Of a stretch of 35,078 nucleotides of DNA, positions 1-12,208 are shown one piece after another (the stretch's first letter is position 1; the number at the start of each line of letters is the position of its first letter). The stretch comes from an uncultured Lachnospiraceae bacterium (GTDB lineage: Bacteria > Bacillota > Clostridia > Lachnospirales > Lachnospiraceae), in NCBI GenBank assembly GCA_902799015.1, contig CADBZI010000019.1:1-35078 (forward strand), in the 5' to 3' direction. A program made the translations under genes and the position numbers. The notes beneath the pieces were generated by a model. That model had not been told where the DNA came from. It saw only the letters and a list, made by a program, of their open reading frames with translations, and searched no databases.

Positions 1-1841
1 TTCCGGATACCGCCGAGAATGGCTTCCGGACTTTTATCCCCGCATGTATTCAGCGCTAAGATCATGCGTTCTGTCCCAAACATCTCCCCGTCGGCGGCCG
101 TCGCCTCCGGTACACCGTCCGTATAGACAAAGAGCTTATCCCCGGGTGCTATATGGAGATCATATTCCTTATAGCGGACTCCTTCCATCCCGCCGAGTAC
201 AAAGCTATGCTTGTCCTTATACAGCTCAAAGCGGCCATTCTTCCTCCGGATCGCCGGAAACTCATGACCGGCGTTCGCAGCCGTCAGCTTTCCTGTGGAA
301 ATCTCCAGAATACCGAGCCAGGCGGTGACAAACATGTCCATCTGGTTGCTGTCACAGAGTGCTTCGTTTGTCTGATACAGAATCTCAGCGGGACTGTGTA
401 CCTGCCGCGCAAAATCCTCAATGATTCTCTTGGAAAACATCATGAACATCGCACCGGGAATACCCTTGCCGCTGACATCCGCGATGACCAGACACAGGTG
501 ATCTGCGTCAATGAAGAAAAAGTCGTAAAAATCCCCGCCCACGTCCCGCGCGGGGTCCATGGAAGCAAACAGATCCACCTCTCTCCGGTCCGGATAAGGC
601 GGGAAAATGTGAGGCAGCATGCTCTCCTGGATCTGTCTGGCCATGTTCAGTTCCCGGATAATCAGTTCCTGCTCCCTTTTCTGATTCTCCAGTTCCATCT
701 GCTCCCGCTCCATCCGGCGGATCGTATCCATCTGCTGCCGCAGAGCCTGGCTGGTTTTATTGATCTCCTGCTGCATCCTTTGGAATTCGATGATGCTGGT
801 GGGCACGAATTCCCTGGTTTCCAGATCGCCCTGCCCTATGCGTATGATTCCGTCCAGCAGTGATTCAAACTGCGGCATGCGTCTTTTCAGCCACAGGATG
901 TAGAGCGCCATGACAATCAGGAAGATGACGGAAGCGAGAATGGTGACCGTGCGGCGGACATATCGGACTACCTGCTCGTAGCTTTCCATGGAAACCTCGC
1001 GAACGACTGTCCAAGCCGGTGAATCCATCGTCATGGAAAACGCGCAGACAGGCTGATTGTTTTCATTTTGGAAGATTGTTCCGCTGTTGCTCTCGCTGAT
1101 CAGCCGCTCTATGTTCTGACATGCATCCTGGCCCGTATGATAGATTTCCGTCTGATCAGCGGTAAGGAGATGCCATCTGCTTTTTCCATCCTGCAGGGCG
1201 GCAAACTGGTCTTCAAAGATGGACTCATCCATCAGCATCATAGCGTAGCATTCACCGTAACTCGTATTGACAGATCTCCAGGCAGCGATCATGATGTTCC
1301 GGGGCGTTGTACTGTTTTCAAAGCCATAGATCGCAGACCCGGAGAGCGGGCCGACCCACACCGTCTGGCCAAGCGGTGTGTTCAGAATCTTCGCTTTCAT
1401 GTCCTCCGGAAGCGGATTTTCCTCTGGCTGATCAAGGAAAAAGTTGCCCTCCGGGAGTACACCGAACAGGCTTCCGTCCTGCCGCATGAACAGCAGGCCG
1501 AATATGGCGTCGTGTCTTGTCATTTCCCCCCGCAGATAATCCCGGCAGTCGATTCTGCCATGTACCAGCTCTGCCTTTGAAGCGTACTGCAGCCTCGCGT
1601 AGGCAGCGACACGGTCATCCGCCAGGATGCGCTGGACTTCGCTGACGGAAGATGAGATGAGAGGGGGAATCGAATGTGAAACCGTTTCAAAGCCGACTGC
1701 ATTCACATCGTTCTCCTGCTGAAGAATCATATCAATGTACGCCCGGGAAAACAGCGTGGTCAGCAGGATAACCACAAACAAGGTCATGAAGATGACCGGC
1801 AGCATCATGCGAACCCGAAGAGACATCAATTTCTGCTTCAT
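1..1841 (-). CDS. Membrane sensor with SpoIIE/PP2C serine phosphatase domain, 3' end off window
   Basis: I translated this frame through 613 codons without a stop; it leaves the window at position 1, so the C-terminus is missing. Seen: a membrane segment at about residues 12-33, an extracytoplasmic region of about 260 residues, a second membrane segment at about 300-318, a coiled-coil linker (about 350-400), then a PP2C/SpoIIE phosphatase domain from about 400, with metal-ligand motifs DVGGDFYD and IADVSGKGIP and later YTDGVPEA. Such enzymes dephosphorylate anti-anti-sigma proteins of the SpoIIAA/RsbV type (family knowledge). The start ATG follows GGAGGGG by 8 nt, and the upstream lipoprotein gene stops only 5 nt before it, so the two are translationally coupled. 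The sensor region resembles a Cache-type fold only by layout; I see no diagnostic motif. The phosphatase domain closely resembles the one at 11051-12208. Confidence 0.88.
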   Translation of the reverse strand, partial: MKQKLMSLRVRMMLPVIFMTLFVVILLTTLFSRAYIDMILQQENDVNAVGFETVSHSIPPLISSSVSEVQRILADDRVAAYARLQYASKAELVHGRIDCRDYLRGEMTRHDAIFGLLFMRQDGSLFGVLPEGNFFLDQPEENPLPEDMKAKILNTPLGQTVWVGPLSGSAIYGFENSTTPRNIMIAAWRSVNTSYGECYAMMLMDESIFEDQFAALQDGKSRWHLLTADQTEIYHTGQDACQNIERLISESNSGTIFQNENNQPVCAFSMTMDSPAWTVVREVSMESYEQVVRYVRRTVTILASVIFLIVMALYILWLKRRMPQFESLLDGIIRIGQGDLETREFVPTSIIEFQRMQQEINKTSQALRQQMDTIRRMEREQMELENQKREQELIIRELNMARQIQESMLPHIFPPYPDRREVDLFASMDPARDVGGDFYDFFFIDADHLCLVIADVSGKGIPGAMFMMFSKRIIEDFARQVHSPAEILYQTNEALCDSNQMDMFVTAWLGILEISTGKLTAANAGHEFPAIRRKNGRFELYKDKHSFVLGGMEGVRYKEYDLHIAPGDKLFVYTDGVPEATAADGEMFGTERMILALNTCGDKSPEAILGGIR

Positions 1842-1846
1842 GATAC

Positions 1847-3634
1847 TTACCCCTCCGTTCCTGCTGTAGATCGTCTTTCGTATTGCTCAGGCGTATAAGG
1901 CTCGATCCCGTTCGAAATCTGCGCCTCACGAACCAAAGGCACGATGATGGCCGCCGCCTCGTCCCATTGCTGCCGATACGCTTCGAAAACCTCCGGTTCG
2001 CCCAACTCGACGAGCTGACGGATGCTTTCATCCCTGATCTCGTTCCACTCCTCATCCGTTTCTGCCAGGGTAAGATCCACCCATACACTGTCCAGAATCG
2101 CTTCTGCCCTGGCAAGGATGCGAAGCTGCTCCCGAGTCAGGCTGCTCATGCAGGATGTAATCGCTTCACCGCAGTCATTTCTAAAGTCCAACCCGCCGGC
2201 CTGATAGAAGGCATCAGTCGGCAGCTCCACCCCGTAGTGCGCGCAAATATCTTTTGAAATATTGCTGGTCATAGTTGCCTTCGCATATTCACGGTTAATG
2301 GTGACAAAATCCAGCGGATACCCGTCCGGATGAATCACATTGTTGCGCAGCAGCGGCCACGCGCCTGTAAGATCGCCATAAGTCCCCCATTGGGCATAAT
2401 AGTTGTCATCGGAAGCATTCCCCGTCATATAGTCATCAAACTGTTCCTGACCGTATTCGGTCATTCGGGGAATGCCGTCCTCGTCATAATCCCAGGTCAC
2501 ACCCTGCTGGCCCATGGCTGCCTCACGCAGAAAGTCCGGATCGCACATATAGTTAAACAGGCTTAATGCCGCTTCCTTATGCTGGCTGTTCTCGGAGATA
2601 AACCACATGTATTTGGAACCGTTGCCGAGCAGCTGATAGACGTTTGTGTAAAGATTTGTACCAGCGGTTGGTACCAGACCATACCCGCACAGGGTATCCG
2701 GATCCGTCTCGACCATGGCGTTGTAGAAATCCTCAGATTTGTTCTGCAGTCCGAGATACTGCCCACGGATACATTTGGTCTCGTACTGCTCCACCGTCTG
2801 AGTGAGAAATTCCATATCGAAGGAGCCGTCCTCTTTACCGGCCCGGTAGAGCTTGTTGAACCAGCTCATGGTTGACCACCACATGGAGTGCTCCGGATCC
2901 GTGTATCCGTCATACACCTCATTGGTGAAAATATTGTTCTGATACTTATAGGCTGCCCAGTAATCAAGGCTTACCTCCGCCCGGAAGGCAGTGGCATAGC
3001 CGACAAAATTGTTGGTACCGAACAGATAGGTGGGATAGCCTTCCTCGGTGAAAGGATGGTTTTCGTGCATCTGCTGCAGCACCCTCAGATAGTCGTCCTC
3101 ATTGTTGATCGGCGGATAACCCAGCTCTTTGTAATAATCCCAGCGCACGACATACCCCCGGTTGGCAGGCTCATTGCTGTATCCAACGCCGTTGTACCCG
3201 ATCTTCTGGGGAAAAAAATAAAACCCGTCGTCTCCGTCCAACAGCGCAGTGAATACATCATAGGCCATCCGGGTTTCTCCCTGCATAAAGTTCGGGACAT
3301 ACTCCTCCAAATATGGACCGGCATTGAATGCAACGCCATTATCCAGGATGGTGGCAAGATTGTTGTCGGTAGCGACGATGTCCGGCAGATCGCCACTGGC
3401 GAGTCCCGCGGCATAAGCTTCAGGCGTCATATAAACAAACTGTATATCCATGCCCAGCTGATCTTCCAGATACTGCCACAGGCCCACCTGTTCCTCTCCA
3501 TCTACACGTGCACGGGAGCGATCTTCCACATCGCCGATCGTCAGCACCGGGCGTTCCTCGGTGCGGACGAAACAAGACGGAAGCAAACCAAACGTCAGCA
3601 CCGCAGCAAATGTGAGAAACAGGATTTTTTTCAT
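1847..3634 (-). CDS. ABC-type extracellular solute-binding lipoprotein (family 1, LplA/YtcQ-like)
   Basis: 595 residues. Signal peptide with lipobox LLPSC places the acylated cysteine at residue 21, so the mature protein should be membrane-anchored outside the cell. The body has the aromatic-rich pattern of large sugar/oligosaccharide-binding proteins of the YtcQ/LplA type (for example WWSTMSWFNKLY and the FNYMCDPDFL region), and is about 50-100 residues longer than many members because of a helical C-terminal part from about residue 480. RBS GGAGG lies 8 nt before the ATG. No permease or ATPase genes of a sugar ABC transporter occur in this window; the only partner is the SpoIIE phosphatase 5 nt downstream. 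I infer a possible role as ligand-presenting co-sensor for that phosphatase, but transporter genes could lie beyond the left edge. Ligand unknown. Confidence 0.85.
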   Translation of the reverse strand: MKKILFLTFAAVLTFGLLPSCFVRTEERPVLTIGDVEDRSRARVDGEEQVGLWQYLEDQLGMDIQFVYMTPEAYAAGLASGDLPDIVATDNNLATILDNGVAFNAGPYLEEYVPNFMQGETRMAYDVFTALLDGDDGFYFFPQKIGYNGVGYSNEPANRGYVVRWDYYKELGYPPINNEDDYLRVLQQMHENHPFTEEGYPTYLFGTNNFVGYATAFRAEVSLDYWAAYKYQNNIFTNEVYDGYTDPEHSMWWSTMSWFNKLYRAGKEDGSFDMEFLTQTVEQYETKCIRGQYLGLQNKSEDFYNAMVETDPDTLCGYGLVPTAGTNLYTNVYQLLGNGSKYMWFISENSQHKEAALSLFNYMCDPDFLREAAMGQQGVTWDYDEDGIPRMTEYGQEQFDDYMTGNASDDNYYAQWGTYGDLTGAWPLLRNNVIHPDGYPLDFVTINREYAKATMTSNISKDICAHYGVELPTDAFYQAGGLDFRNDCGEAITSCMSSLTREQLRILARAEAILDSVWVDLTLAETDEEWNEIRDESIRQLVELGEPEVFEAYRQQWDEAAAIIVPLVREAQISNGIEPYTPEQYERRSTAGTEG

Positions 3635-3680
3635 CGGTTTTTCCTCCCTCTGACAAATCTTTCAGTTTCACCGCTCAACT

Positions 3681-3686
3681 ATTATA
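3681..3686 (-). promoter_or_regulatory. Extended -10 promoter for the lipoprotein-phosphatase operon
   Basis: On the minus strand TGATATAAT gives a perfect TATAAT box with the TG extension. No good -35 is present at 17 nt, which fits an extended -10 or activator-dependent promoter. Predicted start of transcription is near 3674, about 40 nt before the lipoprotein ATG. Confidence 0.6.
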
Positions 3687-3737
3687 TCATGCTTATCATA
3701 TCGATTGTATCCCCGATCTGCAGACCTTGCTCACTCC

Positions 3738-3780
3738 AACTTTCTTCCCCAACACACAGTATAAAAACTTTCTTCCCCAA
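3738..3780 (-). repeat. Two 15-nt direct repeats upstream of the lipoprotein promoter
   Basis: The minus-strand 15-mer TTGGGGAAGAAAGTT occurs exactly twice, at 3738-3752 and 3766-3780, with 28 nt between starts. It lies roughly 50-95 bp upstream of the extended -10 box, a normal place for an activator. The regulator is not identifiable from sequence. Confidence 0.6.
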
Positions 3781-3781
3781 G

Positions 3782-3946
3782 TCTTCGTTAAATGATCATC
3801 CTATCATGAATGAGCTCTTCGATGGCTTCAGACATGAACAGATATTGAAGTTTATGTTTTCCCCGATTCTATTCCTATTTATTATCTATTGCATTCCGTT
3901 TTTGTTCCTTATTTGAATTATTTATATCCCGTTTCTATTCCTTTTC
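3782..3946. other. A+T-rich non-coding spacer between divergent genes
   Basis: Part of the 414-bp gap (3635-4048) between the divergent lipoprotein and ATPase genes. It is clearly richer in A+T than the flanking genes. I see no ORF with a ribosome binding site, no RNA gene and no long palindrome here; the only supported signals of the gap are the promoters and the direct repeats listed separately. Confidence 0.5.
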
Positions 3947-3975
3947 GTGACTTTAAGTATATTTTATGTTATGAT
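3947..3975 (+). promoter_or_regulatory. Promoter for the AAA ATPase gene
   Basis: GTGACT (3947-3952) and TATGAT (3970-3975) are separated by 17 nt, and the -10 is preceded by TGT, giving an extended -10. This places transcription start near 3982, about 67 nt before the ATG at 4049. Confidence 0.5.
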
Positions 3976-4048
3976 AGTGACCTGAATAACGGTGGTGGAA
4001 AACAGATGTGACAGATGGAATGGCCATCTCATTATTCGGAGGAAATGC

Positions 4049-5368
4049 ATGCTTAAAAGAAAACTTTACTCCAGGATTCTGGATTGGAAAAGGAATCATT
4101 CTCATTCATGCCTGATGATTAAAGGCGCCAGGCAGGTGGGCAAAACATTTATTGTCAGAGAATTTGGTGTTAACGAATACCGTTCCTTTATCGAGATCAA
4201 CTTTATAAAGCAAAAAGAACTCAAGGATATTTTTTCAGGCCCGCTGGATGCCGCAACGATCTATAAGAGAATGACAGCACAGATCAGGGATATACAGCTG
4301 ATTCCCGGAGAGACGCTCATTTTCCTTGATGAAATACAGAACTGCGGGAATGCACGAACAGCGATCAAATTTCTTGCTGAAGACGGCCGGTTTGATGTGA
4401 TTTCCTCCGGCAGCCTGCTGGGACTGACTTATGCGGAGGATGGTGATTCGGAAGTTGAAGAACCTTTTTCCGTTCCGACCGGATATGAAGATTTTCTGAC
4501 CATGTATTCTCTGGATTTTGAAGAATTCCTTTGGGCTATGGGATATGGTGATGAAGCAATCCACGTGCTGCAAAGCTATTTCGATTCAGGTGAAAAAGTC
4601 CCCGCCTCGCTGAATGAACAATATGAGGAACTGTTCCGTGAATACATAGTTGTCGGAGGTATGCCGGAAGCAGTCGATTCATTTTCCAGAAATCAGGACT
4701 TTAATGCGGTGGCTGCCATACAGGAAAGGATCCTTGAGAACTATCGTTTTGATATTGCAAAACACACAAAAGGAGCCGAGAAAGTAAAAGTAAAGGCATG
4801 CTATGAGGCCATACCCAAACAGCTTGCAAAAGAGCTCAAAAAATTTCAGTATGCGACAGTTGAAAAAGGAAAGACCAGTAAAAAATATGGAGGAAGCGTC
4901 CGCTGGCTGATCGATTCAGCGCATGTGCATGCCTGCTATAACGTTCACGAAGCTTACATCCCTCTTCTGGCAAACGCAATCGAAGAGCAGTTCAAGCTAT
5001 ATATCAACGATACAGGATTATTGTGCGCCATCTATGGTTTTGAAACAAAAAGAGCCGTGCTCAATAATACGCTTAAGGGAAATGCAAAAGGCGGCATTTA
5101 TGAGAATATTATCTCAGAATGCCTGGTAAAGAAAGGATACCGGCTTTTTTACTACAAACCGGACGATGACCATGAAGTGGAATTCCTGATTGAAAAGAAC
5201 GGTGAAGTCATACCTGTTGAAGTAAAAGCAGGAAACACCGCTTCCGTTTCGCTAAACAATTTCATCCGGGACTATCAGCCATCAGCAGCGTACAAGCTTG
5301 TCAATGGAAATGTAGGTGTTTCAGATGTAAAAAGAACACTTCCGCATTATATGGTCATGTTTCTATAA
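4049..5368 (+). CDS. AAA_14 / DUF4143 family ATPase
   Basis: 439 residues from the ATG preceded by GGAGG at 7 nt; an upstream in-frame ATG at 3992 lacks such a site. Seen: Walker A GARQVGKT (about residues 26-33), Walker B TLIFLDEIQ (about 89-97), and a C-terminal DUF4143 part ending in a PD-(D/E)XK-like strand pair, HEVEFLI then IPVEVKAG. In most relatives the first motif reads EVDFLI; here the acidic residue is Glu. The family is abundant in gut anaerobes, often in single-gene, variably placed loci, and its function is not established. The gene is alone on the plus strand, has its own promoter and terminator, and is visibly more A+T-rich than its neighbours, which suggests it was acquired or inserted between two signalling operons. 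Confidence 0.88.
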   Translation: MLKRKLYSRILDWKRNHSHSCLMIKGARQVGKTFIVREFGVNEYRSFIEINFIKQKELKDIFSGPLDAATIYKRMTAQIRDIQLIPGETLIFLDEIQNCGNARTAIKFLAEDGRFDVISSGSLLGLTYAEDGDSEVEEPFSVPTGYEDFLTMYSLDFEEFLWAMGYGDEAIHVLQSYFDSGEKVPASLNEQYEELFREYIVVGGMPEAVDSFSRNQDFNAVAAIQERILENYRFDIAKHTKGAEKVKVKACYEAIPKQLAKELKKFQYATVEKGKTSKKYGGSVRWLIDSAHVHACYNVHEAYIPLLANAIEEQFKLYINDTGLLCAIYGFETKRAVLNNTLKGNAKGGIYENIISECLVKKGYRLFYYKPDDDHEVEFLIEKNGEVIPVEVKAGNTASVSLNNFIRDYQPSAAYKLVNGNVGVSDVKRTLPHYMVMFL

Positions 5369-5410
5369 AAGGATGTTGGGGCAGAAGCTCCCCAACATCC
5401 TTTATTTAAA
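5368..5410. terminator. Bidirectional intrinsic terminator after the ATPase gene
   Basis: A perfect 14-bp stem, AAAGGATGTTGGGG with its complement, and an 8-nt loop begins inside the ATPase stop codon and is followed by TTTATTT on the plus strand. On the minus strand it is followed by TTTTATAG, so it can also stop transcripts of the kinase operon arriving from 5591. Confidence 0.85.
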
Positions 5411-5590
5411 CCTTCCGAACCATTTTCAAACATTATTTTTCAGACTCTGGTTTACAAAATGAAAGGCAATCTCTATAATTGAGAATCAATCTTCCGAACG
5501 GTAAAGGGTTCAAATCTCAGGATCGCATGGATGTATGCATGACCGATATTCCCGGTCAGTATAATGACGGTGAACAGAGTCAGGGCAACT
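5411..5590 (-). other. Intergenic stretch with a possible decayed membrane-protein fragment
   Basis: Downstream of the kinase-DegV stop, one minus-strand frame (about 5600-5473) reads a hydrophobic stretch, VALTLFTVIILTG, followed by a polar tail ending RKIDSQL. It has no start codon or RBS of its own outside the DegV coding sequence. It could be the relic of a membrane protein or chance. A short hairpin TGACCG/CGGTCA lies within it. No other feature is seen in the gap. Confidence 0.2.
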
Positions 5591-8329
5591 TTAATACTTC
5601 GTAAAGAACAGGAGACCGAATGTTCCCGGTCCGCAGTTGGTTGCAATCCCGGCAGAAGCTTTCTGGACATAAATTTCATCGAACGTCAATTCTACTTCAA
5701 CCTTCTGCCGGATTCTTTCCAGTTCTTTCGTTGTCATGCCGCTGTACGTAATGAAAAGCATGCGGCGGTCAATGGTCCCGTGCACACGGAAGGCGGAGGC
5801 AATGTATTTTTCCCAAACCTGTTCCCTGGAGCCGAAGAATACTTTCGCAACGCCGATCTTTCCTTTTTTAAGTCCCGTCACAATATGTGCGTTAAATGCT
5901 TTCACAAGATTTCCGACCGGTTCCGGAACCTGGTTCTGCCGTACCAGGTAGTCCAGTGTGTCAGTAATAAAGCGCGTGTGCACATGGCTTTTCATCTCTT
6001 CAAGTCTTGCGACGATCTGGCTGACTTCCAGGCCTTCGTCTGCCAGACGTGCTGCCTCGATAGCCATCAGTCCCTGACCGCTTGACAGTTGCCCGGAATC
6101 GACCACGGTCACATTTCCAAAATCTTCCGCAGCATCCATTGCCGCCTGGCAGCCGCTGTGCTCCACCTTGCCGGAAATAGCCAGATGAATGATGTTATTG
6201 GCGCTGTCAAGCTGTTTTGAGAAAAACAGGCTGTACTCTTCTTCCGTGGGCGAAACGACTTCCGCTTTCGAACCGGGATTCTCCATGTATGCCAACAGGC
6301 CGTCTGTTTCAATCTCCAGGCCGTCTTTGAAGAGTCCTTCATTTGTTTTGATCATATGAGGAATCTGCTCAATGTTATATCTTTCAAGCAGTACGTCCGG
6401 GATGTCCGCGACACTGTCAGTCGTTATCCTGATCCTCGCTCTCTTTATATCCTCATTTACCCAGACCGCGCTTTCCTTTGTGACATCGTTCACCGTTCTT
6501 GTCACGGTAACGATATCCTCCGGAAGAAAATGACAAACGGTGTTTTCCAGATCTTCTCCCCGGACAGGTTTCATCAGATACCCGTCAAATCCCTCTTTCC
6601 GGTACAGGTTCTGCATATCGCTTCCGGCATTGGCCGTCAGGGCTATGACCTTTGATTCGTGGCACGAGCCGCCGGTCTGTTTGCGTATGGCATGCAGGCA
6701 CTCGATCCCGTCCATCCCGGGCATTTTGTGGTCCATCAGGATGACATGGTAATAATTATCGAACGTCTTTTTCAATGCTTCCTGTCCGGATGAGGCTGTA
6801 TCCAGATTCACCCTGGTATCTGCGAGAAGCTTCGTTACTACCAGAAGGTTGGCTGCAGTATCATCCACGACAAGCACCTTTGCCTCCGGAGCCTCGAAGG
6901 ATTTCACATACTGATATGACTTTTTGTCTTTCCTGCTGCGCTCCGCGTCAAAGGCTCCCAGGGGTTCGTCGCTGATGATCCGCTGCGGTATCTCGATCAC
7001 AAAGGTGGAACCTTTTGTGTAAACACTGTTTACCGTAATCGTTCCTCCCATCAGATCCACAATCTGTTTTACAATGGACAGGCCGAGCCCGGTACCCTCA
7101 ATGTATTTATTTTTCTCATTATCAACCCTTTTATAGGCTGAAAACAAATGCGGGATGCTTTCCTTTTTGATTCCTATGCCGGTATCAATGACTGAAAAAA
7201 TGATTCTTGCGTTTCCCTTTTCATCCTTCTTACTCTGGACGGAAAGTGTTACAGAACCTTCGCGTGTGTACTTGATGGAGTTATTCAGTACATTGATCAG
7301 GACCTGCCGGATCCTCATCTCATCCCCTTCCAATTGTGAGGGAAGGTCCGGAGCTACTTCTATATGGAAAGCAAGATCTTTTTCGTTTGCCCGGAGCCAG
7401 AGCATCCCCACGATATCCGAAAGCATATCTCCGACGCTATAGGGAGCAAGGGTCAGTTCCATCTGTCCCGATTCTATTTTTGACATGTCGAGAATATCAT
7501 TGATCAGATGAAGCAGCATCCTGCTGGCAGCCTGTATATTTTCGGCGTCTTCGTTGATCTCCTCTGAGACGTTCTGGCGGAGGATCATTTCATTCAGTCC
7601 GATGATCGTATTGATGGGGGTACGTATTTCATGGCTCATGTTGGAGAAAAACCGGTTCTGAGCCTGATTAAGTTTCCGTATCTCTTCTTTCTGTGCCTCC
7701 TGCTCCAGGATATTTTTCTGGGCAACATATTTGCCATAGTAAATAACAATCGAAAGGACAAAATGTATGATGATAAAAACGAGAAAATCGCCCAGTTCGC
7801 TCTTGATGATCGTTCCGCCGATACTGGATGAGAGATAATAATTTATCTGAAACAGATCTGCAATCACTGTTAAGCCAAGAAACACCCGTATATCCATATA
7901 CACGCAGAAAGGCATACACATCGAGACGATGATGAAAAGCGTCGGCACGGCCCGTCCATGGGACAGATAATCCAGATGGCACACTGAAAGCGCCCATAAA
8001 TGCCATACCACCATCATCACCGTATTGATCAGCGGCAGCCACCGATATCTTTCATCAAATTTACTCCGGATGAACAAAAACAGACATTCAACCAGAAGGA
8101 GGCAGACAAGCATCACATTATAGCTGAGACGAAGGCTGGCCAGAAGAGCGGCGTCCCCATAGGATCCCGGCCATATATAGGAATTGACCTCAAATACGCC
8201 TATTGCCAGTGCAAAGATCGGATAGACAAAAAGCGATATCATGAGTGCATCGTATAAACAGCTTTTTTCCAGCTTCTCATAGTTAGGATTTTTCTTCGGA
8301 TGAAAAATAAATTCAAACACTTTACTCAT
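5591..8329 (-). CDS. Membrane hybrid histidine kinase - receiver - DegV (fatty-acid-binding) fusion
   Basis: 912 residues from the ATG at 8329, which overlaps the stop of the upstream kinase by 8 nt (ATGAGTAA). Order: five or six membrane segments (about 25-200); HisKA with H-box SNMSHEIRTP (His233); HATPase with N-box NVLNNSIKYT, DTGIGI and GTGLGLSIV; receiver domain (about 483-602) with VLVVDD, phospho-acceptor ILMDHKMPGMDG (Asp533) and LMKPV; then a full DegV/EDD domain (about 633-912) opening ITTDSVADIP, with IIHLAISGKVEHSG, TVVDSGQLSSGQG and the C-terminal GPGTFGLLF typical of the family. DegV/FakB proteins bind a fatty acid and present it to the kinase FakA (family knowledge). The usual TSQPS loop is replaced by VVSPT. 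The frame is continuous across the join with no internal start signal. Inference: a phosphorelay kinase that also reads or carries an acyl ligand. Confidence 0.92.
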   Translation of the reverse strand: MSKVFEFIFHPKKNPNYEKLEKSCLYDALMISLFVYPIFALAIGVFEVNSYIWPGSYGDAALLASLRLSYNVMLVCLLLVECLFLFIRSKFDERYRWLPLINTVMMVVWHLWALSVCHLDYLSHGRAVPTLFIIVSMCMPFCVYMDIRVFLGLTVIADLFQINYYLSSSIGGTIIKSELGDFLVFIIIHFVLSIVIYYGKYVAQKNILEQEAQKEEIRKLNQAQNRFFSNMSHEIRTPINTIIGLNEMILRQNVSEEINEDAENIQAASRMLLHLINDILDMSKIESGQMELTLAPYSVGDMLSDIVGMLWLRANEKDLAFHIEVAPDLPSQLEGDEMRIRQVLINVLNNSIKYTREGSVTLSVQSKKDEKGNARIIFSVIDTGIGIKKESIPHLFSAYKRVDNEKNKYIEGTGLGLSIVKQIVDLMGGTITVNSVYTKGSTFVIEIPQRIISDEPLGAFDAERSRKDKKSYQYVKSFEAPEAKVLVVDDTAANLLVVTKLLADTRVNLDTASSGQEALKKTFDNYYHVILMDHKMPGMDGIECLHAIRKQTGGSCHESKVIALTANAGSDMQNLYRKEGFDGYLMKPVRGEDLENTVCHFLPEDIVTVTRTVNDVTKESAVWVNEDIKRARIRITTDSVADIPDVLLERYNIEQIPHMIKTNEGLFKDGLEIETDGLLAYMENPGSKAEVVSPTEEEYSLFFSKQLDSANNIIHLAISGKVEHSGCQAAMDAAEDFGNVTVVDSGQLSSGQGLMAIEAARLADEGLEVSQIVARLEEMKSHVHTRFITDTLDYLVRQNQVPEPVGNLVKAFNAHIVTGLKKGKIGVAKVFFGSREQVWEKYIASAFRVHGTIDRRMLFITYSGMTTKELERIRQKVEVELTFDEIYVQKASAGIATNCGPGTFGLLFFTKY

Positions 8330-11048
8330 GGTATTCACTTCCTTCCGGATAAAATTCCAACACTTCGTTATCCGCACCGTCATCCGGATAGAATTTCATT
8401 ACTTCATTATCAGCGCCGTCATCCGGATAGAATTCCATTACCTCATCATCCGCACCGTCATCCGGATAAAACTCCATCGCTTCATCATCCGGCATAGTCT
8501 CATTGCTGCCCTTACGGAAACAGCCATGGATTTCGTCCGCTATACGTTTATATTCCTCCATCACACCACTGTGTGAAAGACGGATGGTATCCCCATCGCC
8601 GGAGTGTGCCGCCTTCTCAAGTTCATATGCCTCTTCTGAAAGATGCCCTGCCCCGATCATTTTTGCCGTTCCCTTAACGGCGTGTACAAGGATCTCGTAA
8701 TTTTTCAGGTCATTATCCTGCAGATGTCCCCCGGCTTCCCTGATCTTTCCTTCCGCTTCATCGGCAAACTGCAGAAGGAGGACCTTATAGAATTCCTCAT
8801 CCCCCTGACAGTATCCGAGTCCTGTGGCAGTATCAATTCCAAGTTCTTTCAGCACGGAGAATTGCTCATCCGCCTGTTTCTGCTGTTCTTCCGCTTCTTC
8901 CGGTTTTACTGCTTCACCCGGTTCCTTCGCTTCTCCGGCTTTTTCTGGTTCTCCTGATATTCCGGTCCCGGACCTTTTTATGCCAGATGCTTTTGTTTCC
9001 AGCGTGAGCATCGATTTTGGCAGCACTTTTTTCAGCACTCTTTCCAGTTCGGAAATGACGATCGGTTTTGCCAGGAAAGCATCAAACCCTTCCCGCAGGA
9101 ACATTTCATTCGCAGTACTTACCGTATTCGCAGTAAGGGCTACGATGACGGCTTCCTTCCCTTCCTTGCCAAGCACGGAACGGATCCGTTTCATGGCTTC
9201 CACTCCGTCCATACCGGCCATCATATGGTCCATGAAGATGAGGTCCACCTCGTTTGTCCGAACATACTCCACTGCTTCCGCACCTGATAAAGCCGTGTTT
9301 ACAACCATCCCGTATCCTTTCAGGATCTGGTTGGCAACGGTCAGATTCATAAACTCATCATCTACCACCAGCGTCCTGACACCCCTTGCATAAAGTTTTC
9401 CTTCTGCCGCTTTCCTCTCTTCCCTGTTCAGGTTTATGAATGTAGTATAGGAAAAACCGTAAAGGGGCCGCCGGATCAACGTGATCTCAGATCCTTCCGG
9501 CAGTTCAAATTCCCAGTCGCAGATGACGGCAACCATTGCTCTTTTTGACATGGCATCGATATATTCCCGGTCTTCCAGATATATCTGCATGCCAACGAAA
9601 ACATGCGTCAGTTTCACTTCCCGGTCAATCTCTTTTAAATCATCCAGCCGGTCTGCCCGATGTATTTTGACCCCGAGACCCAGCATGAGATTCTGTCCAT
9701 ATGCATCATAGAATTCCTTAACGAGAGGATGTTTGATAGTAGACATCTTGTAGCAGGTTCCGATGCACAGTTTTTCAGGGTTCCTAAGGCTCATGCAGTA
9801 TTCGCTGTTTACAACCTTCTGGGGAATGCTGATCCGGACAGTCGTTCCCACATTCGGCTCACTCTGTGCAACAAAAAAACCGTTCAGGCTCCTGACAAAG
9901 CCCCTTATGATAGCAAGTCCCAATCCCAGACCGCTTGAGTACCGCGTCCTGCCGGAATCCGCCTGATACAGGCCCTCGAATGCTTTTTCCAGCTGGGCCT
10001 GGTCCATCCCGATCCCGGTATCCCTTACTTCGATCAAAAGATTGATCCCGTACTCCCGCTGTTCAAAGGAAAGATGGAGATAAACACCACCCTCATTCGT
10101 ATATTTAATCGCATTATCGAGCAGGTGCCGGAGGATCTTTTTCAGTTTTACGACATCCGTCCTCAAAACAGAGGGGAGCCGCGGATCCACATTGATGATC
10201 AGCTCCAGGTTCTTTTTTCTGATCGGCGATATCTCCGTCACAAGGTCATGCAGCAGCGAAGAGATCATATAATCCTCTTCACTGACCGCGAGCGTTCCCA
10301 TGTCAATCTCAGAATAGTCCAGAATGTCGCTGATCTGATCTGCAACTTTATTTCCTGCTTCCATTACCGATGTCAGGTCCTTTTTTATCTCCCGGTCATC
10401 GGTCCTGTCAATGCAGATCCTGGTGAGCCCAATCACGGCATTGATGGGAGTCCGGATCTCATGGGAAATATTCGCGAGGAAATCATTCAGCCTTCCTGTC
10501 ATCTCAGCCAGTTCCTGCTTTGATTCCTCCGTCCGCCCCATCAGGTTCGCCTGCCGTCTCATATATGATCGCGCAATCAAACAAAACAGTGTGACGATAA
10601 ATAAATGGAGCAGCGTCCGGGTAATCAGCAGTCTGTCAAAAACTTCCCCCTGGTTGTACAGGAAAAACAGGTCATAGATGATCGCAAGGTAGTATGTAAT
10701 CTGGCATAAGGTGATCAGCCCGAGGACACCGGTAGACATGTAGATCAGGACGACTCCCGTCATAACGATCCCCAGATCAAAAGTACTCGTTGTATGGGAG
10801 CCATAAAAGAACGCAGTTGCCATCATCAGAATGGCGTACAGCCATATCCTGTAATTGGAGGGAATGCTTTGCCTGATATGTACGATCCAGGCCAGAACCA
10901 CTCCTGCCGCGATCAGGATCAAAGCCCATTTTTCCCAGGAAAGAAGCAGGGCTTCACCGATCAGAATGACCGAGAACAGGGTATAGCAGAATAAAATGGT
11001 ATTATGTGATGTTTCAGAATAATACTTGCCCGTTTTCTTTCCTTCCAT
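8322..11048 (-). CDS. Membrane hybrid histidine kinase with receiver and C-terminal Hpt domain
   Basis: 908 residues from the ATG at 11048 (GGAG 8 nt upstream); an in-frame ATG 13 codons earlier lies inside the preceding gene. Order: about six membrane segments (residues 17-160); HisKA with ANISHEIRTP (His196); HATPase with HLLDNAIKYT, DTGIGM and GLGLGLAII; a region at about 420-545 that has receiver-like length and lysine/aspartate pattern but no phospho-acceptor Asp, probably a pseudo-receiver; an active receiver (about 557-670) with LVVDD, FMDHMMAGMDG (Asp607) and LAKPI; an acidic linker rich in Glu-Pro-Ala; an Hpt domain with HAVKGTAK (His789); and a tail of 13-residue repeats. It begins 2 nt after the response regulator gene and overlaps the next kinase. 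The Hpt could pass phosphate to the PP2C response regulator of the same operon. Confidence 0.92.
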   Translation of the reverse strand: MEGKKTGKYYSETSHNTILFCYTLFSVILIGEALLLSWEKWALILIAAGVVLAWIVHIRQSIPSNYRIWLYAILMMATAFFYGSHTTSTFDLGIVMTGVVLIYMSTGVLGLITLCQITYYLAIIYDLFFLYNQGEVFDRLLITRTLLHLFIVTLFCLIARSYMRRQANLMGRTEESKQELAEMTGRLNDFLANISHEIRTPINAVIGLTRICIDRTDDREIKKDLTSVMEAGNKVADQISDILDYSEIDMGTLAVSEEDYMISSLLHDLVTEISPIRKKNLELIINVDPRLPSVLRTDVVKLKKILRHLLDNAIKYTNEGGVYLHLSFEQREYGINLLIEVRDTGIGMDQAQLEKAFEGLYQADSGRTRYSSGLGLGLAIIRGFVRSLNGFFVAQSEPNVGTTVRISIPQKVVNSEYCMSLRNPEKLCIGTCYKMSTIKHPLVKEFYDAYGQNLMLGLGVKIHRADRLDDLKEIDREVKLTHVFVGMQIYLEDREYIDAMSKRAMVAVICDWEFELPEGSEITLIRRPLYGFSYTTFINLNREERKAAEGKLYARGVRTLVVDDEFMNLTVANQILKGYGMVVNTALSGAEAVEYVRTNEVDLIFMDHMMAGMDGVEAMKRIRSVLGKEGKEAVIVALTANTVSTANEMFLREGFDAFLAKPIVISELERVLKKVLPKSMLTLETKASGIKRSGTGISGEPEKAGEAKEPGEAVKPEEAEEQQKQADEQFSVLKELGIDTATGLGYCQGDEEFYKVLLLQFADEAEGKIREAGGHLQDNDLKNYEILVHAVKGTAKMIGAGHLSEEAYELEKAAHSGDGDTIRLSHSGVMEEYKRIADEIHGCFRKGSNETMPDDEAMEFYPDDGADDEVMEFYPDDGADNEVMKFYPDDGADNEVLEFYPEGSEYHE
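8348..8486 (-). repeat. 39-bp in-frame tandem repeat encoding the kinase C-terminal tail
   Basis: Three contiguous 39-bp units (8348-8386, 8387-8425, 8426-8464) and a partial fourth encode near-identical 13-residue units of the type FYPDDGADNEVME. The period is an exact multiple of three, so copy number can change without a frameshift. It lies just upstream of the overlap with the DegV-fusion gene. Confidence 0.88.
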
Positions 11049-11050
11049 GG

Positions 11051-12208
11051 TCACTGCTCCTTTTTGCCCGGCAGGTATTCCAGACACAGCATGGTCAGGT
11101 CATCAAACTGCTCACTGTCCCGGACAAAGCTGCCCACTGCCTCGCTCACGCCAAGCAGTACCTGTCTGGGGCTCGCTCCGGCATTGTCATTCAAAGCGTC
11201 AATCATACGGGACGTTCCGAAAAGTTCACCTTCACTGTTGGCAGCTTCCGGTACGCCGTCTGTATAGACAAACAGCTTTGAACCGGGCGTCATCTGTATC
11301 TGGTATTCCCTGTACCGCATGTTCGGAAAAGCTCCGATGATCAGATCATGTTTGCGTTTCATCAGTTCAAAGCTGCCATCCGAATGCATGAACGCCGGAT
11401 ATTCGTGGCCCGCATTCGCGGCGGTCAGTATCCCTGTGGAAATATCCAGGATACCAAGCCACACAGTCACAAACATTTCCTCCGGATTATTGGCACAGAT
11501 CATCATATTTGTATCCTCCAGGATCTGTGCAGGCATTTTGCCGGCCTTGGCGTTTTCTGCAAGCACGATCTTGGAAACCATCATGAACAGGGCTGCCGGG
11601 ATTCCTTTGCCGGAGACATCTGCAATCAGCAGACACAGATGATCCTTATCCGTAAAGAAAAAATCGTAAAAATCGCCCCCGACACCTCTGACCGGTGTCA
11701 TGCTTGCATAGACATCAATATCCTCACGATCCGGAAATGCAGGGAAAATACCGGGCAGCATGGCCGACTGTATACGGGAGGCCATTGCGAGTTCGGCACT
11801 GATGCGTTCATTCTCCTTTTCCAGATTGTGCTGAAGCCTTACAAGCTCAATTGTATGTTTGACCCTGAGAACCAGAACATCCGGGACAAAAGGCTTTTTG
11901 ATAAAATCCATAGCACCGAGCGCAAGCCCCCGCGTTTCAGACTCCTGATTATCATCCGCTGTGAGAAAGATAACCGGGATCTGCTCCTGCAAAGGGGTCT
12001 GCTCCTTCAGCCGCTGCAGAGTTTCAAACCCATCCATGCCAGGCATTTTGATATCCAGCAGGATCAGGTCAGGTTTATTGGATTTAATAAAACCGAGCAG
12101 AGCCGTCCCCGACTTCAGGGCGGTCACACGCATATTATGTTTGCTCAGAATATGCCCAGCCATTTTGAGATTTAAAATATCATCATCTACAACAACAACC
12201 CAGTCCAT
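11051..12208 (-). CDS. Response regulator with SpoIIE/PP2C serine phosphatase output domain
   Basis: 385 residues. N-terminal receiver with VVVVDDD, phospho-acceptor LILLDIKMPGMDG (Asp52), FLTADD and FIKKPF; a coiled-coil linker (about 120-150); and a PP2C/SpoIIE domain from about 165 with GVGGDFYDFFF, IADVSGKGIP, YTDGVPEA and the final metal site SEQFDDLTML. This RsbU/RssB-like layout links a phosphorelay to dephosphorylation of an anti-anti-sigma factor (family knowledge); no such partner is encoded in this window. The ATG is preceded by GAGGG at 6 nt. It is the first gene of a three-gene operon and is followed after 2 nt by the Hpt kinase. The catalytic domain closely resembles that of the phosphatase at the left edge, so the two are paralogues. 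Confidence 0.92.
   Translation of the reverse strand: MDWVVVVDDDILNLKMAGHILSKHNMRVTALKSGTALLGFIKSNKPDLILLDIKMPGMDGFETLQRLKEQTPLQEQIPVIFLTADDNQESETRGLALGAMDFIKKPFVPDVLVLRVKHTIELVRLQHNLEKENERISAELAMASRIQSAMLPGIFPAFPDREDIDVYASMTPVRGVGGDFYDFFFTDKDHLCLLIADVSGKGIPAALFMMVSKIVLAENAKAGKMPAQILEDTNMMICANNPEEMFVTVWLGILDISTGILTAANAGHEYPAFMHSDGSFELMKRKHDLIIGAFPNMRYREYQIQMTPGSKLFVYTDGVPEAANSEGELFGTSRMIDALNDNAGASPRQVLLGVSEAVGSFVRDSEQFDDLTMLCLEYLPGKKEQ

Follow-up and report, generated by a model that had tools for sequence, protein, structure and literature searches.

A putative regulatory domain derived from FakB in a proposed two-kinase phosphorelay of Lachnospiraceae

The described systems closest to the locus reported here are the regulator DhaQ, the unorthodox hybrid histidine kinases of the BarA, TorS and ArcB type, and the fatty-acid-binding FakB/DegV proteins (PF02645), of which Staphylococcus aureus FakB1 is an example. 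DhaQ of Lactococcus lactis is a paralogue of DhaK that has been reused as a ligand-sensing co-activator of DhaS and binds dihydroxyacetone. In PMC8892158, the carboxylate network of FakB is given as Thr62, Ser95, Ser171 and His270, changes in this network are described as destabilizing FakB, Arg173 and Arg205 are described as completely conserved in FakB, and Arg205 of FakB1 is reported to bind FakA. The protein considered here has HisKA, HATPase_c and receiver domains in common with the hybrid kinases but departs from them by carrying an additional DegV domain and by sharing a single Hpt with the kinase next to it. This DegV domain is FakB-like in fold from end to end (132 bits; TM 0.84 to 2dt8), whereas, in contrast to FakB1, DegV domains of this kind (relay DegVs) are fused to or lie beside hybrid kinases and do not keep the carboxylate network, Arg173 and Arg205. 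The fold of DhaQ (2iu6) is weakly similar (TM 0.57), and DhaK-type folds were among the weak Foldseek matches, but DhaQ is not fused to a histidine kinase. By analogy, the relay DegV may parallel DhaQ as a kinase carrier subunit turned sensor. Our preferred reading, to which we give a probability of roughly 0.55, is that a former FakB now serves a two-kinase phosphorelay as its cytoplasmic regulatory domain. Sequence analysis establishes the domain content, the close packing and order of the genes, the rule of one Hpt per kinase pair, the relay clade and the specific loss of FakB sites with retention of the fold.

The window, that is, the whole stretch of 35,078 nt that was analysed (contig CADBZI010000019.1 of an uncultured Lachnospiraceae bacterium), contains the following features, given with the basis for each.

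5591..8329, minus strand: 912-aa hybrid histidine kinase-receiver-DegV protein (open reading frame, Pfam, start alignment with relatives)
7766..8248, minus strand: membrane region of the fusion, five helices, residues 28-188 (hydropathy)
7466..7663, minus strand: HisKA of the fusion, SHEIRTP intact (Pfam and motif)
6980..7327, minus strand: HATPase_c of the fusion (Pfam)
6539..6877, minus strand: receiver of the fusion, Asp533 at 6731-6733 (Pfam and motif)
5600..6433, minus strand: relay-type DegV domain of the fusion (Pfam, AlphaFold2/Foldseek, alignment)
8322..11087, minus strand: partner hybrid kinase with membrane region, HisKA, HATPase_c, receiver-like middle domain, receiver and Hpt; alternative start ATG at 11048 (open reading frame, Pfam)
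9432..9788, minus strand: receiver-like middle domain of the partner (predicted fold, no Pfam match)
8589..8780, minus strand: Hpt of the partner, the sole Hpt in the pair (Pfam)
11051..12208, minus strand: response regulator with receiver and SpoIIE-type PP2C phosphatase, the probable output (Pfam)

The initial annotation had described a multi-pass membrane kinase, a receiver with an intact aspartate and a full-length DegV domain as joined in one uninterrupted frame, and each of these points was borne out. The minus strand from 8329 to 5591 holds a single unbroken frame for a 912-aa membrane region-HisKA-HATPase_c-receiver-DegV protein; the plus strand across these positions is stop-rich. The open reading frame (5591-8383, minus strand) stays open for 930 aa and a further ATG is possible at 8383, but the start at 8329, which gives 912 aa, agrees by alignment with the start positions in eight close relatives (L023, L025-L029, L037 and L038). 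Asp533 is numbered on the 912-aa protein and Pfam coordinates on the 930-aa frame, where HisKA (residues 241-306, 68.5 bits), HATPase_c (353-468, 99.3 bits), Response_reg (503-615, 75.0 bits) and DegV (PF02645, 651-928, 132.4 bits against a cut-off of 27) all exceed the Pfam cut-offs. The DegV match spans profile positions 2-279 of 280 and also passes TIGR00762 (145.2 against a cut-off of 99.7). Asp533, the SHEIRTP motif and the ATP-binding boxes are all intact, a simple hydropathy scan places five membrane helices within residues 28-188, and the best NCBIfam matches to hybrid kinases are TorS and BarA, both far under their cut-offs. An AlphaFold2 model of the DegV part (mean pLDDT 91, 17 sequences) matches DegV/FakB crystal structures, with 2dt8 as the best Foldseek match (TM 0.84). 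A chance open reading frame was ruled out by the presence of four domains above cut-off within one frame. An assembly or frameshift artefact was likewise ruled out, and a sequencing error between receiver and DegV excluded in practice, by 74 further distinct kinase-DegV fusions with the same type of join, which also means that the window protein is not a singleton.

We compared 83 rows of relay DegVs with 54 rows of stand-alone DegVs. The relay rows were collected by similarity to the window DegV or by frame length and are not a random sample; 75 of them are fused (one from the window, 15 from named contigs and 59 from genomes of the family sample). The stand-alone rows consist of a first set of 21 and a later 33, in all 5 from the PDB and 49 from genomes, and residue counts use 53 of them, the Dak2-DegV fusion L185 being set apart. 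Partial loci (L003 and L047-L076) and exact duplicates (L025 and L078) were dropped from the DegV rows, as was the PDB row of Streptococcus pneumoniae FakB2, which does not cover the end. Residues are numbered as in FakB1, in agreement with twelve residues named in PMC8892158; for position 270 the alignment to 2dt8 was used first and FakB1 itself then served as a check.

At FakB1 positions 62, 95, 171, 173, 203, 205 and 270 the window DegV has V, E, Q, Q, V, F and N, respectively. None of Thr62, Ser95, His270, Arg173 and Arg205 is kept, and Arg173, which is needed for the kinase reaction, is replaced by Gln. A VVSPT loop had been noted at the outset and changed head-group contacts suspected from it; our alignment supports both and places the loop as one of several changed sites. 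All five FakB residues (T/S62, S/T95, R173, R205 and H270) occur together in 0/83 relay DegVs as against 49/53 stand-alone DegVs by script, or 50/53 when His270 of FakB1 is included. Taken singly, Arg205 is present in 2/83 relay and 53/53 stand-alone DegVs, His270 in 2/83 and 49/53 (50 with FakB1), and Lys203 in 0/83 and 51/53, while Arg173 persists in 29/83 relay DegVs, never together with Arg205 (0/83). Position 205 is hydrophobic in 69/83 relay DegVs. Entropy at positions 62, 95, 171, 173, 203 and 205 is 0-0.27 bits among stand-alone but 1.98-3.01 bits among relay DegVs, whereas mean entropy over 279 columns is alike in the two sets (2.04 and 2.12 bits, respectively). This indicates that constraint has been lifted at the FakB sites and not domain-wide. 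Other positions have become characteristic of the relay family: Thr32 is found in 96% of relay and 0% of stand-alone DegVs, and Asn replaces His270 in 73/83 relay rows, which points to a new and conserved role, although Asn270 also occurs in three stand-alone rows. Near FakB1 position 87 the fused DegVs have a conserved His, which was set aside because it does not appear among the relay-specific sites.

A different type of stand-alone DegV, with five members here (L002, L012, L016, L018 and L019), keeps Ser62, Ser95, Arg173 and Arg205 but has Tyr270 and Gln203, and the DegV of L077 retains all five FakB residues. With these six DegVs added, none of which is in the tree described below, Arg173 and Arg205 are present in 59/59 and all five residues in 51/59. 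Thus, His270 alone is no strict mark of stand-alone DegVs, but the arginines are. The L077 protein itself (4407-6260, plus strand; genome G007, of the same genus as the window) is 617 aa long, with DegV at residues 333-611 and about 330 preceding residues without a Pfam match; L190 and L191 also encode such longer DegV proteins.

These residue patterns bear directly on the idea that the relay DegV still works as a FakB, binding free fatty acid and either sensing exogenous acyl chains or handing them over to FakA under control of phosphorylation. The full DegV fold, with a fatty-acid-binding DegV as the best structural match, would fit this idea, as would the presence in the same genome of FakA and two stand-alone DegVs, and the retention of Thr/Ser62 in 63/83 and Ser95 in 36/83 relay DegVs makes a changed lipid ligand possible in part of the family. 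However, the two stand-alone DegVs of this genome (L001 and L002) retain both arginines, which no relay DegV does, and the window DegV has lost the network whose alteration makes FakB unstable, as well as the arginine that binds FakA, according to PMC8892158. Acyl delivery to a FakA/PlsX system, as had been suggested, is contradicted by the changes of Arg205 to Phe and Arg173 to Gln in the window and by the near-complete loss of Arg205 across the relay family, and we regard a FakB-like role as quite improbable. Domain-based annotation would label relay DegVs as fatty-acid-binding even though they have lost the residues that this role requires.

The relay DegVs also form a group of their own. 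In a tree of 137 DegV rows, built by a quick method with no bootstrap, the 83 relay rows lie on one side of a single branch and the 54 stand-alone rows on the other (SH-aLRT 100, or 99 with fewer rows). The dN/dS of the DegV domain was 0.11-0.20 in three pairs, with values in two of these being rough because dS exceeded 1.5 and was near saturation; a fourth pair was too close for this use. These ratios indicate that the relay DegV is maintained by selection. A chance capture of DegV during a lineage-specific expansion of hybrid kinases, followed by drift, might be read from the patchy presence of the fusion in its own genus and from the faster evolution of DegV than of the kinase core in three of four pairs. 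Nevertheless, the domain evolves about as fast as the membrane part, under purifying selection, and belongs to one widely spread clade that has been repeatedly rearranged inside the same module, so that we find drift hardly credible.

The module is a pair of kinases. In the window the partner lies directly upstream of the fusion, with an overlap of 8 nt when the fusion starts at 8329, and the HisKA His, ATP-binding boxes and receiver Asp are intact in both proteins. The partner carries the Hpt (32.2 bits against a Pfam cut-off of 24.6) and a middle domain without a Pfam match that has a receiver-like predicted fold (pLDDT 85); the best Foldseek match of this domain is a lysine decarboxylase at 1e-4, followed by many receivers at 1e-3 to 1e-2, and the domain is conserved beside DegV proteins. 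A second hybrid kinase is found directly upstream in 72/83 relay rows. In a set of 73 rows taken for spacing, the two genes lie within 40 nt in 69 and overlap by 4 nt in 29. The 11 rows without a partner include three at a contig end (L024, L030 and L153, the last a receiver-DegV frame truncated where its contig stops and included in the eight rows labelled as beside the kinase), four with less than 600 nt upstream (L033, L034, L091 and L120) and one that sits behind another DegV fusion (L087_610). In the partnerless rows with room, a kinase-receiver ORF overlaps beyond our limit (L103), a kinase lies one ORF further up (L127) or no kinase was seen (L137).

Every complete kinase pair contains exactly one Hpt (67/67), located on the partner in 55 and on the DegV protein in 12, and in the two pairs with no Hpt (L106 and L157) the contig ends within the DegV protein. 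This rule suggests that the kinases of a pair function together. It also disposes of the earlier suggestion that DegV takes the place of an Hpt, since in some relatives the Hpt follows DegV and otherwise it is on the neighbouring kinase. Pfam scored an Hpt above the cut-off on L096, L116, L119, L125 and L135, whereas that of L122 fell short of it. DegV-first order was seen in L106, L116 and L135, DegV-Hpt without kinase in L122 and L125, and DegV as a separate protein beside the kinase in L103, L136 and L138-L140. On the DegV tree these arrangements require a minimum of three changes in the place of the Hpt (five rows with cut ends excluded), one for DegV-first order and five for joining to the kinase, so that parts appear to shift about yet remain within the module.

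Output genes next upstream vary among the 72 partnered rows. A receiver gene with HD and/or GGDEF domains, that is, of c-di-GMP type, occupies this place in 23 and a receiver-PP2C gene in four (the window, L023, L027 and L037), so that a PP2C output was seen only in the window and three close relatives. The remaining neighbours are a receiver alone (7), two receivers (1) and another kinase-receiver-Hpt protein (2); in a further 30 rows the 1,200 nt upstream of the partner, of which at least 400 nt are present, contain no receiver gene, and five rows have no room. Pfam HD_5 or GGDEF was confirmed in seven output proteins (L079, L083, L084, L085, L098, L108 and L122). We take the HD_5 domain to be an HD-GYP phosphodiesterase; the motif HxER.DG.GYP is present in 19 of 23 receiver-HD proteins of the fetched loci. 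The window's own genome has 21 GGDEF matches, indicating that c-di-GMP has not been lost there. A PF01740 (STAS) model, used alone, gave no match at E 0.001 in this genome, which is 85% complete.

Taken together, we propose that the window encodes a three-gene phosphorelay consisting of the DegV kinase (5591-8329), the Hpt kinase (8322-11087) and the receiver-PP2C phosphatase (11051-12208). Both kinases would act in one complex, and the phosphoryl group would pass from the receivers of both to the single shared Hpt and on to the output enzyme's receiver. For its part, the DegV domain, a former FakB that would no longer feed FakA, may serve as a cytoplasmic regulatory domain that binds a ligand, perhaps still a lipid though not through the FakB carboxylate contacts, and thereby sets how efficiently the receiver or Hpt is served. 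The old face for docking on FakA and the membrane (Lys203/Arg205), now mostly hydrophobic, may dock on a relay domain.

The main rival to this proposal is that DegV is a ligand-free scaffold, a pseudo-FakB whose docking or dimerization joins the kinases or orients the receiver without any sensing. Such a scaffold would explain the loss of FakB sites equally well, which weakens the regulatory-domain reading: relay DegVs are freed of constraint at every FakB ligand and docking site, a hydrophobic position 205 (69/83) together with loss of Lys203 in 83/83 is as in a buried interface, and DegV may be C-terminal, N-terminal or a protein of its own next to the kinase. In contrast, a scaffold has no need to keep Asn270 (73/83) and Thr32 (96%) among domains with 30-58% identity to the window. 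The old FakB sites moreover differ among the paralogues L081, L112 and L133 of genome G347, a pattern that resembles ligand tuning but also fits lost constraint. We judge a scaffold to be less likely than the regulatory reading. Returning to the regulatory reading, its broader form, in which a new class of cytoplasmic sensor domain arose from FakB in Lachnospiraceae, responds to an intracellular metabolite such as a lipid and thereby controls a relay of two kinases and one Hpt with c-di-GMP or PP2C as output, the old FakA-docking face touching the relay, is put forward tentatively, as somewhat short of an even chance. Lipid sensing by the relay DegV, if borne out, would couple c-di-GMP to the lipid state of these bacteria.

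Among the matches listed and the loci read, kinase-DegV fusions were seen in one family. DegV matches in frames of at least 680 aa were found in at least 67 of 397 genomes of the same family, with at least 92 such frames (not every frame was read), and 75 distinct kinase-DegV fusions, the window included, were read in the fetched loci. A fusion is present on 16 named contigs, of which two are identical in the DegV part; they are labelled Lachnospiraceae (11), Eubacterium sp. (2), Butyrivibrio sp. (1), Clostridiales (1) and Clostridia (1). In the window's own genus 1/19 genomes has a kinase-length DegV frame, and the module is thus patchy. Among the matches listed, no DegV frame of at least 680 aa lay outside the family in an order sample (196 genomes) or a phylum sample (398 genomes, E up to 1e-52), and none of 25 loci read from these samples (20 outside the family and five inside) had a kinase-joined DegV; in L169 and L178 a DegV of stand-alone type has an ordinary kinase and a receiver gene nearby. 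Among plasmids, searching with the DegV part returned 17 records, all below 60% identity. Several kinase-length DegV frames per genome were present, among the matches listed, in G347 and G324 (four each) and in G405, G348, G059 and G020 (three each). The old FakB sites vary between copies within G347 and within G324, and these copy-to-copy differences may resemble those of an expanding sensor family.

Kinase relays and the DegV fold are both of known kinds, but we found no description of their fusion, of the module or of its loss of FakB sites in searches of the open-access PMC literature; public databases presumably hold such fusion proteins, annotated by domain. The Dak2-DegV fusion L185 is also a multidomain DegV without Arg205, but its other domains are those of a fatty acid kinase and not of signalling. 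It joins Dak2, a FakA-like middle region and DegV in one frame (3588-5378, plus strand), where DegV takes the position of the C-terminal domain usual for FakA and has Phe at position 205, and frames of similar length occur in G583, G446 and G533. Within the window, an open frame at the edge (3-1841, minus strand) has a C-terminal SpoIIE-type PP2C domain and is thus a second PP2C near that of the relay; it is adjoined by a 595-aa protein without a Pfam match (1850-3634, minus strand). The window therefore holds two SpoIIE-type phosphatases in a genome in which PF01740 gave no match, and their targets may differ in kind.
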